A stretch of 59,948 nucleotides of DNA from Carboxylicivirga sp. M1479 (lineage in GTDB: Bacteria; Bacteroidota; Bacteroidia; Bacteroidales; Marinilabiliaceae): positions 1 to 59,948 of the forward strand of contig NZ_VKDE01000028.1 of assembly GCF_007097485.1 (NCBI RefSeq), given 5' to 3'. Under the pieces are notes generated by a model. The model was not told the origin of the DNA, did no database searches, and saw nothing but the letters and a program-made list of their open reading frames with translations. This document shows positions 14,818 through 40,014 of this stretch, in pieces. Numbering within the stretch: position 1 is the stretch's first letter; each line of letters opens with the position of its first letter. Both the position numbers and the translations under genes were made by a program.

Positions 14818-15354
14818 CTATTTAATCACAACTATATCCAACAAACCATTTTCTCCACTATAATCTCTGGCACTACTATACACATAATCTTCAGGACGAA
14901 AAACCAAACCCTCCTCTACTGGGTTATTATGGATGTAAGCAATCTTCTCATCAATCACCTTATTGCTCCATAATTCAACTGGTTTATTGTCATGCCTCCA
15001 AAACTGGTGATTGTTTACATTTGATGATTTTAATGCTTCATTCTTAAACTGTTCCAACAACCATTCTTTCCGACTCTCTATTGCTTTAACAATTGCATTA
15101 CTCGTAAAGCGTTTGAAATCACCTAAGAGTAATTCAGGCTTTTGTTTATTGATACTTCTGAAAATCAGATGCACATGATTGGTCATTATACACCAGGCAA
15201 AGATTTCCATGCCTTTATTCTTACTACAGAAATCTAAACTTTCAATTAAAAGGTCTTTGTATTCATTTCGAGTAAAAACATCCAGCCATTCTACTACTGC
15301 AAAGCTGACAAAATAGGTGCCTTCATGGTTATGAAATTTATAGTTCCTACTCAT
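14818..15354 (-). CDS. RAYT (REP-associated tyrosine transposase, Y1 family)
   Basis: About 178 residues of the Y1/IS200-like HUH transposase fold. The opening SRNYKFHNHEGTYFVSFAVV, the HUH pair in CIMTNHVHLIF, and the C-terminal IHNNPVEEGLVFRPEDYVYSS (carrying the helix with the usual nucleophile-bearing segment) are typical of RAYT/TnpA-REP proteins. Members nick single-stranded REP hairpins and are thought to spread them. The family assignment is firm. I did not place the catalytic Tyr with certainty. Start at 15354 (MSRNYKF) is preferred to an in-frame ATG 18 bases upstream. It is enclosed by REP-like direct repeats and is complete, so it may be active. Confidence 0.87.
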   Translation of the reverse strand: MSRNYKFHNHEGTYFVSFAVVEWLDVFTRNEYKDLLIESLDFCSKNKGMEIFAWCIMTNHVHLIFRSINKQKPELLLGDFKRFTSNAIVKAIESRKEWLLEQFKNEALKSSNVNNHQFWRHDNKPVELWSNKVIDEKIAYIHNNPVEEGLVFRPEDYVYSSARDYSGENGLLDIVVIK

Positions 15355-15391
15355 ATAATCAAATATAAACAAAGCTGTGATCCTGTGCGAA

Positions 15392-16095: not shown

Positions 16096-16288
16096 CAACG
16101 TTTCGAATAAGAGGTCGTGGGCTGAATTTGAAAATCCAAACCTCCAAACTCCCACCAAGCCGAAGCTTTTGTTTTGGTTATAAATTTATTCTTTTTACTA
16201 GCCGAAGCAAAAGCTTCGGCGAACTTATTAAAAGAGCAAAACCTCAAATTTTATACTGGCAGCCCATGCCTTTTATTTATTGTTGGCA
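16096..16288 (-). other. attC-like folded recombination site between two single-gene units
   Basis: Read on the minus strand it starts TGCCAACA right after the RDD gene's TAA and ends ACGTTGTACAC before the lipoprotein gene. Complementary arms are GGGCTG/CAGCCC (16119-16124 with 16260-16265) and AATTTGA/TCAAATT (16125-16131 with 16244-16250). A strong central hairpin GCCGAAGC-loop-GCTTCGGC lies at 16201-16220. This long, imperfect, protein-free palindrome, ending in short inverted boxes and placed exactly between genes, is the layout of an integron attC site. The boxes deviate from the canonical RYYYAAC/GTTRRRY and no integrase is in the window. Confidence 0.5.
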
Positions 16289-17101: not shown

Positions 17102-17289
17102 CTGCCCTCAGCGGCAACACTTCCAGCCATTTGGAAATGGCGCTGCCCTGAGCAGGGGCATTTCCAAACGTTTGGAAACCTTCCTGCCGCGAGCGGGAAC
17201 ATTTCCAAACGTTTGGAAACGATGCTGCCGTGAGCAGGAAGACTTCCAAATGATTGGAAGCGATCTCGCCGACAGCGGGAAGATTTTAT
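17102..17289. repeat. 41-bp tandem array of two-hairpin units
   Basis: Units begin at 17102, 17143, 17184, 17225 and (partial) 17266, an exact 41-bp period. Each has a GC stem CTGC-5 nt-GCRG, then a second palindrome. The second palindrome is TTTCCAAACGTTTGGAAA in units 2 and 3, CTTCCAA/TTGGAAG in unit 4 and a shorter TTCCA/TGGAA in unit 1. Changes between units keep pairing in both stems, so structure rather than wording seems conserved. The array ends about 87 bases before the DUF6261-like gene. There are no unique spacers, so it is not a CRISPR array. Confidence 0.85.
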
Positions 17290-17375
17290 GTTCGACATTG
17301 CCTGACATTTCTCATGTTTTAGTAAACAATAATATATCATCTTTATACTGAACCATTCATAATTCTAAAAACAAT

Positions 17376-18101
17376 ATGGAAAAAGTAACTCCATACTTTG
17401 GTAATTATAACCAAAGTGAATGCATCCAGTACTTGTTGGATGCGGCAGCACTATGTGCCAAGCCTAACAATGAAAGTCTGTCTACACCCTTACAGGCGCT
17501 GGCACAAGGCAATACCAAACTGGTACAGGCCTTTAAAAAAGACAAGAAAAGTAACATTACAAAACTATTAACACAGTATGACCAACGTCGCGATGATGCA
17601 GTAGTATGTCTGCGCATGTGCGCTCAGGCTTATACCAATCATTACGATACTGAAATGCGCGAAGCTGCACATATTGTATTAAATACGATAGATAAGTATG
17701 GCAAATCGTTGCACAAGCTGAATTATCAATCGGAAACCAGTGTACTTTCTAATTTGTATACCGATTGCACCACAGAGCCAGTTGCCAGTGCAGTTGCTAA
17801 AATCCTTATGAGCGATGTGGTTGAAGAGATGAATACAGCTAACAGCCTGTTTAATGAAACATATCTGGCACGTGTGGAGGAATCGGCAGCTAAGGAACAG
17901 ATTGCAACAGGTCAGCTCGTGCAGGATGCCATAGCCAACTACCGTCATTTGGTTACATTTATTGAGGCCTATAATACCATTAATCCCGATGGTGGATATG
18001 ATACACTGCTGAAACAACTTAGCGAGTTGGCAGTCAAATACAATGGTTTAATAACGACTAGCGAAACCAGAGAGGAAGTTGAAGAAGAACTTCTGGATTA
18101 A
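17376..18101 (+). CDS. DUF6261-like protein of unknown function
   Basis: A 241-residue, largely helical cytosolic protein without signal peptide or membrane segment. Recurrent pattern residues (RRDDAV near 68, HYDTEMREAAHIVLNTIDKYG near 90, YQSETSVLSNLYTD, MNTANSLFNETYLARVEE, and an acidic tail EEVEEELLD) resemble the Bacteroidota-restricted family DUF6261. The family name is a moderate-confidence match from memory. No catalytic motif is visible. It is alone on its strand, preceded by the 41-bp hairpin array and followed by an intrinsic terminator, so it forms a self-contained transcription unit whose control most likely involves the array. Confidence 0.7.
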   Translation: MEKVTPYFGNYNQSECIQYLLDAAALCAKPNNESLSTPLQALAQGNTKLVQAFKKDKKSNITKLLTQYDQRRDDAVVCLRMCAQAYTNHYDTEMREAAHIVLNTIDKYGKSLHKLNYQSETSVLSNLYTDCTTEPVASAVAKILMSDVVEEMNTANSLFNETYLARVEESAAKEQIATGQLVQDAIANYRHLVTFIEAYNTINPDGGYDTLLKQLSELAVKYNGLITTSETREEVEEELLD

Positions 18102-18137: not shown

Positions 18138-18179
18138 AAACCCGCTTGATTAGTTTCGAGCGGGTTTATTTGTTTTTTT
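18138..18179 (+). terminator. Intrinsic terminator after the DUF6261-like gene
   Basis: AAACCCGCT and AGCGGGTTT form a 9-bp stem with a 12-base loop, followed by ATTTGTTTTTTT. It lies 37 bases after the stop at 18101. Confidence 0.88.
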
Positions 18180-18765: not shown

Positions 18766-19360
18766 GTTTGGCCGTTTGATGTTTTGTATACCATCATTAG
18801 AGGTGTAGCTCTTTATTACGTCAATTATAATATTTAAACGATTCATATCCAACCGTACAATATGCAAAAATTAAACTACCGCCTCAACGGTTGAGACAGT
18901 GTGGTATTGACCACCTCAGGAAGTTTGCTGGTAAGGTAAACGGCCTTTTTGTCTTCATAAAGCACATTATTATCCTTAAAGAAATGAACTAACATTTGCT
19001 TTCTCTTTAATCTGCCACCCATTATACCGCATCTAAATGCATCGTACCATTTATAATACCGATTTAATATCAAAATGAGCCTTTTGCTTCGCTTACTCCT
19101 CGCATTCGTATTTAAGATTCAACCACTTTGTGGTTGTTACAAAAAAAGGTATATATCATACCCCCTGCATTCCATGCAGGGTTATTAATATTAATTCCTT
19201 TTCAGGATTTATCACCAACAACCACAGGGTGGTTGAATAAGAATAACCCCGGATAAAATCTGGGGCAAATAAAAATTCTCAATTATAGAATCCTAAAGGG
19301 ATTCAACTTTTAAATGCAATTGCGATGCACTTACTCCCAAAACCTCTTTCGTTTATTATC

Positions 19361-39048: not shown

Positions 39049-39072
39049 CATCCGCAATCAAGAAGCAAACAC

Positions 39073-39169
39073 GGGTAAGTCCCATACGACTAGCTCCTGT
39101 TGAATTCCCCCAGGGCCTGGCGGCAGCAAGGGTAGACGGTTGTAGCAGTGCGATATGGGTAGCTTACCC
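39073..39169 (+). ncRNA. ffs: Bacterial signal recognition particle RNA (4.5S type)
   Basis: About 97 nt. The ends GGGTAAG and CTTACCC close the outer helix. The conserved domain IV core AGGGCCTGGCGGCAGCAAG (GG-N-AGCA internal loop) is the Ffh-binding site. It pairs with Ffh to target membrane proteins. The tetraloop reads GGCG-like rather than the GGAA of E. coli, a variation seen in some Bacteroidota. It leads a transcript that includes the following tRNAs. Confidence 0.85.
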
Positions 39170-39173
39170 ACCC

Positions 39174-39247
39174 GCCTGTGTAGCTCAGCTGGCTAGAGCA
39201 GCTGATTTGTAATCAGCAGGTCGGGGGTTCGAGTCCCTCCACAGGCT
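39174..39247 (+). tRNA. tRNA-Thr (TGT), copy 1
   Basis: 74 nt. Acceptor GCCTGTG/CACAGGC, D arm GCTC...GAGC, anticodon stem GCTGA/TCAGC with TGT in the loop, T arm GGGGG-TTCGAGT-CCCTC. No encoded CCA. It starts five bases after the SRP RNA end. Confidence 0.97.
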
Positions 39248-39332
39248 CTAAAAACCGAATAGGTTTTTAGAGAAATAAGCCTAACAACAAAAGAGTTGTT
39301 AGAAAGAAGTAAGAGATATTGAAAATATTGAT

Positions 39333-39415
39333 GGGGAGATACCAAAGCGGCCAACTGGGACGGACTGTAACTCCGTTGACTTATGTCTTCGCAGGTTCGA
39401 ATCCTGCTCTCCCCA
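39333..39415 (+). tRNA. tRNA-Tyr (GTA), copy 1
   Basis: 83 nt with a long variable arm (class II). Acceptor GGGGAGA/TCTCCCC, anticodon GTA within GACTGTAACTC, T arm GCAGG-TTCGAAT-CCTGC. First of three near-identical copies. Confidence 0.96.
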
Positions 39416-39421
39416 CATATT

Positions 39422-39495
39422 GCCTGTGTAGCTCAGCTGGCTAGAGCAGCTGATTTGTAATCAGCAGGTCGGGGGTTCGAGTCCCTCCACAGGCT
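39422..39495 (+). tRNA. tRNA-Thr (TGT), copy 2
   Basis: 74 nt, identical to copy 1 by eye. Six bases after tRNA-Tyr copy 1. Confidence 0.97.
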
Positions 39496-39514
39496 CAATA
39501 TTTTTCTTATTATT

Positions 39515-39587
39515 GCGAAAGTAGCTCAGTTGATAGAGCATCAGCCTTCCAAGCTGAGGGTCGCGGGTTTGAGCCCCGTCTTTCGCT
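39515..39587 (+). tRNA. tRNA-Gly (TCC), copy 1
   Basis: 73 nt. Acceptor GCGAAAG/CTTTCGC, anticodon TCC between stems TCAGC and GCTGA, T arm GCGGG-TTTGAGC-CCCGT. Followed directly by a T-tailed hairpin (39590-39617). Confidence 0.96.
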
Positions 39588-39589
39588 CA

Positions 39590-39617
39590 AAGCCATTCGT
39601 TAGGATGGCTTTTTTAT
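39590..39617 (+). terminator. T-tailed hairpin between tRNA-Gly and tRNA-Tyr copy 2
   Basis: AGCCAT and ATGGCT form a six-pair stem, followed by TTTTTTATT. It has the form of an intrinsic terminator within the tRNA array. Confidence 0.65.
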
Positions 39618-39629
39618 TGAATTACAATT

Positions 39630-39712
39630 GGGGAGATACCAAAGCGGCCAACTGGGACGGACTGTAACTCCGTTGACTTATGTCTTCGCAGGTTCGAATC
39701 CTGCTCTCCCCA
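39630..39712 (+). tRNA. tRNA-Tyr (GTA), copy 2
   Basis: 83 nt, identical by eye to copy 1. Its start is 297 bases after that of copy 1, marking a tandem unit. Confidence 0.96.
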
Positions 39713-39718
39713 CATTTT

Positions 39719-39792
39719 GCCTGTGTAGCTCAGCTGGCTAGAGCAGCTGATTTGTAATCAGCAGGTCGGGGGTTCGAGTCCCTCCACAGGCT
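39719..39792 (+). tRNA. tRNA-Thr (TGT), copy 3
   Basis: 74 nt, identical by eye to copies 1 and 2. Six bases after tRNA-Tyr copy 2. Confidence 0.97.
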
Positions 39793-39812
39793 CAATATTT
39801 TTTTTTATTATT

Positions 39813-39885
39813 GCGAAAGTAGCTCAGTTGATAGAGCGTCAGCCTTCCAAGCTGAGGGTCGCGGGTTTGAGCCCCGTCTTTCGCT
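39813..39885 (+). tRNA. tRNA-Gly (TCC), copy 2
   Basis: 73 nt. It differs from copy 1 by one base (GAGCGTCAGC instead of GAGCATCAGC) just before the anticodon stem. Confidence 0.96.
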
Positions 39886-39887
39886 CA

Positions 39888-39916
39888 AGCTATTCGTTTT
39901 AGAATGGCTTTTTTAT
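39888..39916 (+). terminator. T-tailed hairpin between tRNA-Gly copy 2 and tRNA-Tyr copy 3
   Basis: AGCTATT and AATGGCT pair with one wobble, followed by TTTTTTATT. It is the counterpart of the hairpin at 39590. Confidence 0.6.
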
Positions 39917-39928
39917 TGAATTACAGTT

Positions 39929-40011
39929 GGGGAGATACCAAAGCGGCCAACTGGGACGGACTGTAACTCCGTTGACTTATGTCTTCGCAGGTTCGAATCC
40001 TGCTCTCCCCA
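39929..40011 (+). tRNA. tRNA-Tyr (GTA), copy 3
   Basis: 83 nt, identical by eye to the other Tyr copies. Its start is 299 bases after that of copy 2. Last tRNA before the final terminator. Confidence 0.96.
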
Positions 40012-40014
40012 CAC

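Follow-up and report, generated by a model that had tools for sequence, protein, structure and literature searches.

Alternately inverted half-units in a 41-bp palindromic array before a DUF6261 gene of Carboxylicivirga: a possible DNA-binding platform with a two-turn step

The window analysed here is a stretch of 59,948 nucleotides from Carboxylicivirga sp. M1479, and it carries a tandem array of palindromes in front of a gene of the DUF6261 family. This arrangement raises the question of what the array does and which molecule reads it. The first-pass annotation described an exact 41-bp tandem array with two palindromes in each unit, a description that is upheld by TRF, by shuffling and by the dyad centres. 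The whole array, built of alternately inverted half-units of about 20.5 bp, occupies 17102-17286 and comprises 4.5 copies with a period of 41 (TRF). It scores 64.8 in a self-match, and the same 1,200 bases, shuffled 100 times at the dinucleotide level, never scored above 13.6; these shuffles, together with the control stretches, exclude a chance repeat. A coding repeat is disfavoured by the unit length, since 41 is not divisible by 3.

Nine dyads are found at 17102-17278 in the order A-B-A-B-A-B-A-B-A, with centres at 17108, 17128.5, 17149 and onward to 17272. The spacing between neighbouring centres is exactly 20.5 bp throughout, so each 41-bp unit is better seen as a pair of 20.5-bp half-units in opposite orientation. 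The five type A dyads follow the form CTGC-N5-GCRG, with TCGC in the last one: A1 (17102-17114, CTGC-N5-GCGG), A2 (17143-17155, CTGC-N5-GCAG), A3 (17184-17196), A4 (17225-17237) and A5 (17266-17278), a half unit that closes the array. The four type B dyads are B1 (17120-17137, imperfect), B2 (17161-17178) and B3 (17202-17219), both perfect 18-bp palindromes, and B4 (17243-17260); the best form is TTTCCAAACGTTTGGAAA. A search allowing up to three mismatches found two copies of the 18-bp palindrome in the window, both exact, and none of 100 shuffles held as many. It had been claimed that substitutions between units preserve pairing. Inside the window this is weak, since the A stems contain G-T mispairs (CTGC/GCGG in units 1 and 3, TCGC/GCGG in unit 5) and the outermost pair of the unit 1 B stem is broken (CTTCC...GGAAA). 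The claim becomes strong once relatives are added, as set out below.

The gene that follows the array encodes an acidic protein of 241 aa (17376-18101, forward strand), which matches PF19775 at 121.4 bits (E 4.1e-35), above the curated Pfam cut-off of 27. A terminator-like stem-loop is located behind it at 18138-18167 on the same strand, in agreement with the early description of a DUF6261-like gene with its own terminator. The spacer between the array and the start codon (17287-17375, forward strand) is a probable promoter or leader; it lacks a canonical TAnnTTTG, and its stretch TCATCTTTATACTG is conserved in the alignment with the orthologue of Carboxylicivirga marina. Further downstream, a palindromic stretch, AACCACTTTGTGGTT ... 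CCCTGCATTCCATGCAGGG, is found at 19110-19300, and by eye it also occurs beside another DUF6261 gene of the source genome, at L018 (G000:C58). The window has other features of its own. A Y1 transposase-like gene (PF01797) is present at 14818-15372 on the reverse strand, and a CCGAAGC...GCTTCGG palindrome pair is located about 1 kb away at 16147-16225; the two are possibly a RAYT/REP pair. At 39066-40013, a small SRP RNA precedes tRNA genes that are repeated in tandem as 297-bp copies.

The source genome has nine DUF6261 genes above the Pfam cut-off, and the family is present in 17 of 40 related genomes, with up to eleven matches each, and in 11 of 395 genomes sampled evenly from the phylum (the source genome being included in both counts). 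For the linkage analysis, 96 of the 102 matches from related genomes were combined with all 20 non-own matches of the phylum sample, which gave 116 loci in 27 genomes; of the six matches left out, five were at contig ends or had broken or short frames, and one had 43 bp upstream. A linked array was defined as a best period of 40-43 with a score of at least 18 within 800 bp of the gene. Such arrays were found at 66 of 116 DUF6261 loci and at 6 of 256 control ORFs taken from 400 kb of a single relative (Fisher P 6e-34, orthologous loci kept). The suggested check, whether arrays precede DUF6261 genes more often than chance, thus has a clear positive outcome. The linkage is also seen in 46 of 81 clusters at 60% identity (proteins >200 aa), at 13 of the 20 non-own loci of the even phylum sample, and at least once in 23 of the 27 genomes. 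A best array of such strength with another period (28 to 70), on either side, occurs at only four of the 116 loci.

The threshold lies above most shuffles, not all of them: shuffled flanks mostly scored below 17 and the highest reached 20.0 (18 flanks, 100 shuffles each). Of the six control positives, two ORFs reflect a BlaI-type repressor operator and two a repeat within coding sequence; the other two are a match beside an ORF that by eye resembles an IS21-type transposase and an array of the second family described below, seen from a neighbouring ORF. With the cut-off at 18, no array is seen at 50 of the 116 loci; with 15, 74 loci have one. In the source genome, six of the nine DUF6261 genes have an adjacent array scoring at least 18, two have weak arrays (12.8 with period 42; 14.0 with period 41), and one has none.

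The array stands upstream of the gene in the window and at 59 of the 116 loci, and downstream at eight, one locus having it on both sides. The placement of the array directly before a single gene is thus true of the window and fails as a rule, given the eight downstream arrays and the solo arrays described below. The two findings expected to weaken the link, homologues that lack an upstream array and arrays far from any such gene, are both partly borne out, the former by the 50 loci without an array and the 8 with a downstream one. The distance from array to start codon can shrink to a few tens of bases. A canonical TAnnTTTG promoter lies between array and start codon at 9 of 59 loci and upstream of the array at the same number. 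Several orthologous DUF6261 genes have long flanks in common, so these loci look vertically inherited, and cassette mobility is disfavoured for them.

The wording of the arrays varies widely, and their step is nearly constant. The periods near DUF6261 genes are mostly 41 or 42, and the paralogues of the source genome have differing repeat sequences with one or the other of these periods. When strong arrays were folded on their period and compared with column permutations, dyad symmetry was found in 41 of 55 at P<0.05 and in 37 of 55 at P<0.01. Array similarity correlates with protein similarity (Mantel r 0.57, 0 of 2000 permutations as high, 64 arrays). Array wording thus tracks protein lineage, a correlation that linked inheritance would also yield. 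In genome G347, two DUF6261 paralogues that are 75% identical (L141 and L146) have near-identical arrays, with 2 differences in 105 bp; these arrays are unlike that of their relative in another species, which is a concerted change of arrays.

The C. marina orthologue of the window protein is 89% identical in the best segment, and an array is found at the equivalent place before it. Its B dyads have changed in the inner part of both arms in all four units (towards GC..GC), and the outer arms are mostly conserved. For covariation, 52 distinct B units from 16 arrays were picked by an outer-arm template only. Of the 52 units, 43 have a Watson-Crick pair at positions 6-13 and 42 at positions 7-12, against about 24 in shuffles, and none of 1000 shuffles was as high; the independent changes are fewer than 52 units suggest, since the units of one array are related, and at least four inner types are seen by eye. 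The covarying pairs include AT, GC and CG types, and the central four bases have no excess pairing. Covariation beyond random, which had been named as a test of the locus, is therefore present across relatives. The C. marina orthologue hinted that array and protein change together strictly, genome by genome. This was rejected, because G009 and G006 each hold more than one inner-dyad type, G009 in the form of two window-type arrays with different inner B dyads.

The spectrum of column information in the 55 arrays has one clear peak at 10.4 bp (power 0.144 against a null of 0.048, z 15.4), with powers of 0.073 at 13.9 bp and 0.044 at 8.3 bp nearby. The helical repeat of B-DNA is 10.4 bp, and such a rhythm is expected of contacts on one face of the helix. 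The peak alone cannot separate hairpins from face-wise contacts, because four palindrome arms per unit also give four blocks. This ambiguity is removed by a second family, here called family B, whose arrays have the same rhythm without dyads, so that the rhythm is independent of hairpins.

Family B was found through a control stretch in which a strong 42-bp array lies beside an ORF of 229 aa (L127:6270-6959, reverse strand). It is a multi-copy family of mostly 215-240 aa, with loci including L164-L183 and L204-L221, and no significant Pfam match was found among the members scanned. Within the genus, 13 of 14 genomes have family B, and across the phylum 11 of 198 do, the source genome being counted in each. 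Five of 25 matches without a fetched locus and one repeated gene were left out, and so were 2 of the 19 matches of the phylum set (one already included, one with stop codons). An upstream array scoring at least 18 was found at 27 of 36 family B loci when periods of 15-109 were scanned. Of these periods, 24 are exact multiples of 21 (21, 42, 63, 84, 105), two are 82 and 104, and one is 16. The arrays are direct repeats, with dyad symmetry in 1 of 24 at P<0.05, and their column conservation is strongest at a 10.5-bp period (power 0.316 against 0.101, z 11, 24 arrays). Homology between family B and DUF6261 was considered and rejected, as the hhalign probability is 2.8% in local mode and 10% when forced global, neither being significant. 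Family B is thus a second instance of the DUF6261-type design with the same two-turn rhythm. At one locus (L207, genome G136), a 66-bp-period array lies downstream of the family B gene, and its repeat is CRISPR-like in look.

Arrays of the window type also occur away from their gene. A DNA search with the window array found matches in 6 of 14 genomes of the genus, including its own, and at the matched loci examined (1.7-3.2 kb) no DUF6261 or family B ORF was present except at the cis locus. The source genome has two window-type arrays, the cis array and one solo array, and the exact AA-type B dyad pattern has one match outside the two. The solo array lies between the genes for purine nucleoside phosphorylase (PNP) and riboflavin synthase (ribE), identified from their translations. 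By eye, the same two genes are neighbours in four congeners (G006, G009, G010, G011), and there the gap has no array, so the solo array of the source genome was most likely gained. In the richest relative, G013, eight contigs carry window-type matches, and the cis locus accounts for one of them. A second array type also stands alone, with a clear and a degenerate copy in the source genome and further copies in two relatives. Solo window-type arrays are present in G009, G010 and G011, where the window protein has no close relative (best-scoring matches 26-27% identical, highest 34%), and this speaks against a strict rule of one protein for one array.

The solo sites are concentrated between convergent genes, this being the position of 8 of the 12 classifiable sites, whereas 8 of the 90 gaps taken as background are of this kind (P 1.4e-6). 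In this count, an orthologous pair was entered once, two contig-end sites were omitted, and the degenerate site L231 was included among the eight; the background gaps were of 150-900 bp from control stretches of one relative. Two sites, L200 and L231, lie behind what by eye seems to be the same AMP-binding gene of acyl-CoA synthetase type (by Pfam for L200), and their arrays differ: one species has window-type arrays at this place, and another has a degenerate array of the other type.

Together, these data suggest that the array serves as a protein-binding platform of double-stranded DNA, with one contact per turn on a single face of the helix, and that the adjacent DUF6261 protein is its most likely reader; we put the probability of this reading at slightly above one half (about 0.52). 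DUF6261 is the best candidate because the array wording tracks the protein lineage, although linked inheritance could also account for that. In the mechanism proposed, adjacent subunits or dimers would sit on successive half-units of 20.5-21 bp, each spanning two turns and inverted relative to the last, with cooperation extending over the full array of about 185 bp. From a cis array upstream of the presumed promoter, such binding could provide autoregulation and nucleation, and the solo arrays, many of which separate convergent genes, would add targets in trans. Since many paralogues carry arrays of distinct wording, a genome may contain several protein-array pairs that are largely orthogonal. 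Autoregulation would fit the upstream arrays that lie close to the start codon; arrays behind the gene or at solo sites would fit a broader function, for instance as barriers or tethering points. The reader, its cooperative binding and its effect on transcription or chromosome structure are predictions from sequence. Of the options offered earlier, an operator with several sites, to which the DUF6261 product is predicted to bind, thus becomes the best supported, and the regulatory RNA is disfavoured.

Several observations stand against DUF6261 as the reader. Its members are acidic, with a net charge of about -6 on average (n=96), no DNA-binding domain is recognised, the threshold leaves 50 of the 116 loci without an array and 8 with a downstream one, and canonical promoters are as infrequent between array and start codon as they are upstream of the array. 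Two inner B-dyad sequences in G009 are also not predicted by a single strict reader. Searches of 42 members in Pfam, NCBIfam and PADLOC gave no convincing match to a DNA-binding family; beyond DUF6261 itself there were weak matches of one or two members, the best being Pfam CIS_TMP (1.5e-4) and an NCBIfam LysR-regulator model (3.8e-4), these two in one member each. Five DUF6261 proteins had nothing below 0.06 in PHROGs, and PDB sequences gave nothing below 0.003 (best 0.0039). Helical moments are seen along much of the length of the family alignment, and from these moments alone the protein is thought to be mostly helical. A defence-gene reading was rejected, since the window protein has no PADLOC match and 11 PADLOC families were weakly matched by one of the 42 members each. 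Carriage by plasmids or phages was likewise rejected, as a tblastn search with the window protein alone found no match in 72,556 plasmid and 50,697 phage records; the family alignment lacks any stretch of sufficient conservation to serve in a scan of viral contigs.

The first alternative is that the arrays are selfish or structural repeats similar to REP elements and BIMEs, with the linked DUF6261 protein responsible for their copying, movement or maintenance, as has been proposed for RAYT proteins and REPs. The units are alternately inverted as in BIMEs, and a linked gene with cognate palindromes and dispersed extragenic copies is a further likeness to the RAYT/REP system (PMC2817692). The preference for gaps between convergent genes, in which one of the eight sites is degenerate (L231), fits such elements, as do the PNP-ribE gap without an array in four congeners, the spread over eight contigs in G013, and the two array types behind apparently the same AMP-binding gene in two species. 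However, DUF6261 is not a Y1/HUH transposase, and PF01797 is matched only by the separate gene of the window. REP copy number is usually >100 per genome (PMC2817692), against two arrays in the source genome, one further match for the exact AA-type B-dyad pattern, and eight contigs in the richest relative. The rigid step of 41/42 bp and the 10.4-bp rhythm lie outside the REP definition given there, and by eye neither a GTAG/CGTC-type foot nor a GTAG/GTGG-type head beside the palindrome was noticed in the consensus units. This alternative is considered unlikely.

A second alternative, somewhat less probable still, is that a shared host protein, such as a nucleoid protein, gyrase or a global regulator, binds the arrays and that DUF6261 and family B are merely its regulated targets. 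This would agree with the use of the same two-turn step by two families without detectable homology and with the persistence of window-type arrays in genomes without a window-clade protein, but it leaves unexplained why arrays differ so widely between the paralogues of one genome and follow the protein lineage.

A folded RNA is very unlikely. On this view, a transcript would carry the array in its leader or 3' region, where stacked hairpins would control expression, and the view can point to paired positions that covary and to both strands folding far better than shuffles (z -6.8 and -11.2). Folding on both strands is, however, expected of any inverted-repeat array. Mispairs on the gene-sense strand have no significant wobble bias (77 G-U against 59 A-C, P 0.14), the helical rhythm of 10.4 bp recurs in family B without dyads, the array is downstream of the gene at eight loci, and no Rfam family is matched at gathering score. 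The regulatory-RNA option of the first-pass annotation therefore gains no support from either the curated families or strand-specific, wobble-tolerant covariation. Quasi-palindrome correction is a template switching mechanism, and the notion that it writes the palindromes while unequal exchange makes the tandem copies, all without function, has the least to commend it: a solo site in two relatives with a 188-bp array against a 66-bp match (the gap being 124 bp, or about three units, shorter) and half-changed, intermediate palindromes in G006:C148 would suit it, but the linkage to two protein families, the near-constant step of 20.5/21 bp over the phylum, the 10.4-bp rhythm and the family B arrays without dyads are left unexplained.

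Among known systems, repressors of the BlaI/MecI type are winged-helix proteins, and to our knowledge no long arrays or solo copies are associated with them. One such gene in a control stretch (PF03965, L116:18111-18482, reverse strand) was picked up by the same period scan, since it has repeats spaced 20 bp just upstream; the likeness lies in this spacing before its own gene, and the difference in the number of sites, two to three. StbA of plasmid R388 (PMC3098194) binds DNA and has repeats arrayed around the promoter of its own gene: this array, stbDR, acts in cis and StbA in trans, the motif is also found at other promoters, and stbDR consists of two sets of five 9-bp direct repeats with 2-bp spacing in an operon with StbB and StbC. 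The joint presence of array and protein gene, with the motif also elsewhere, resembles the present case, whereas StbA is plasmid-borne, DUF6261 in the window genome stands beside alternately inverted 41/42-bp units, and no relation was detected between them. KfrA of plasmid RA3 (PMC7783346) is almost wholly alpha-helical, oligomerises and represses its own gene through a repeat array, OK, of five 9-bp direct repeats over the promoter; its HTH has been mapped, whereas none was found for DUF6261 in the libraries searched, where scattered weak single-member matches do not amount to a recognisable DNA-binding domain of the StbA or KfrA kind. In Porphyromonas gingivalis, the BrickBuilt MITE contains 23-nt repeats together with a leader and a tail (PMC4596501); like the present arrays, these are tandem repeats in intergenic Bacteroidota DNA, but the abstract names no linked protein family. 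The alternating extragenic palindromes of RAYT/REP systems are found here without a Y1/HUH domain (PF01797) in the linked protein and without high copy number. By analogy, the DUF6261 arrays may be assigned to the array-plus-linked-protein kind, like StbA/stbDR and KfrA/OK in working, with no common domain detected. A literature search on DUF6261, PF19775, Bacteroidota repeats, RAYT/REP and array-binding proteins, in which most subscription journals were outside coverage, returned no account of these arrays.

The finding gives DUF6261 and family B a concrete, testable role, namely the reading of arrays stepped at two helical turns. It can be proposed, tentatively and as a possibility we regard with some doubt, that the two families are the founders of a new class of Bacteroidota proteins, the readers of chromosomal arrays, in which a helical filament would follow one face of the DNA with a contact once per turn, and each protein would have a private, fast-diversifying array whose sole fixed property is the two-turn step of 20.5-21 bp. 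If this were true, insulation or a barrier function would fall to the solo arrays between convergent genes, and a single genome would hold many mutually orthogonal DNA-tethering codes. The diverged protein-array pairs with their near-constant step form a natural data set on the joint change of proteins and their DNA sites, and if the pairs prove orthogonal, they may supply DNA-tethering or repressor modules for Bacteroidota.
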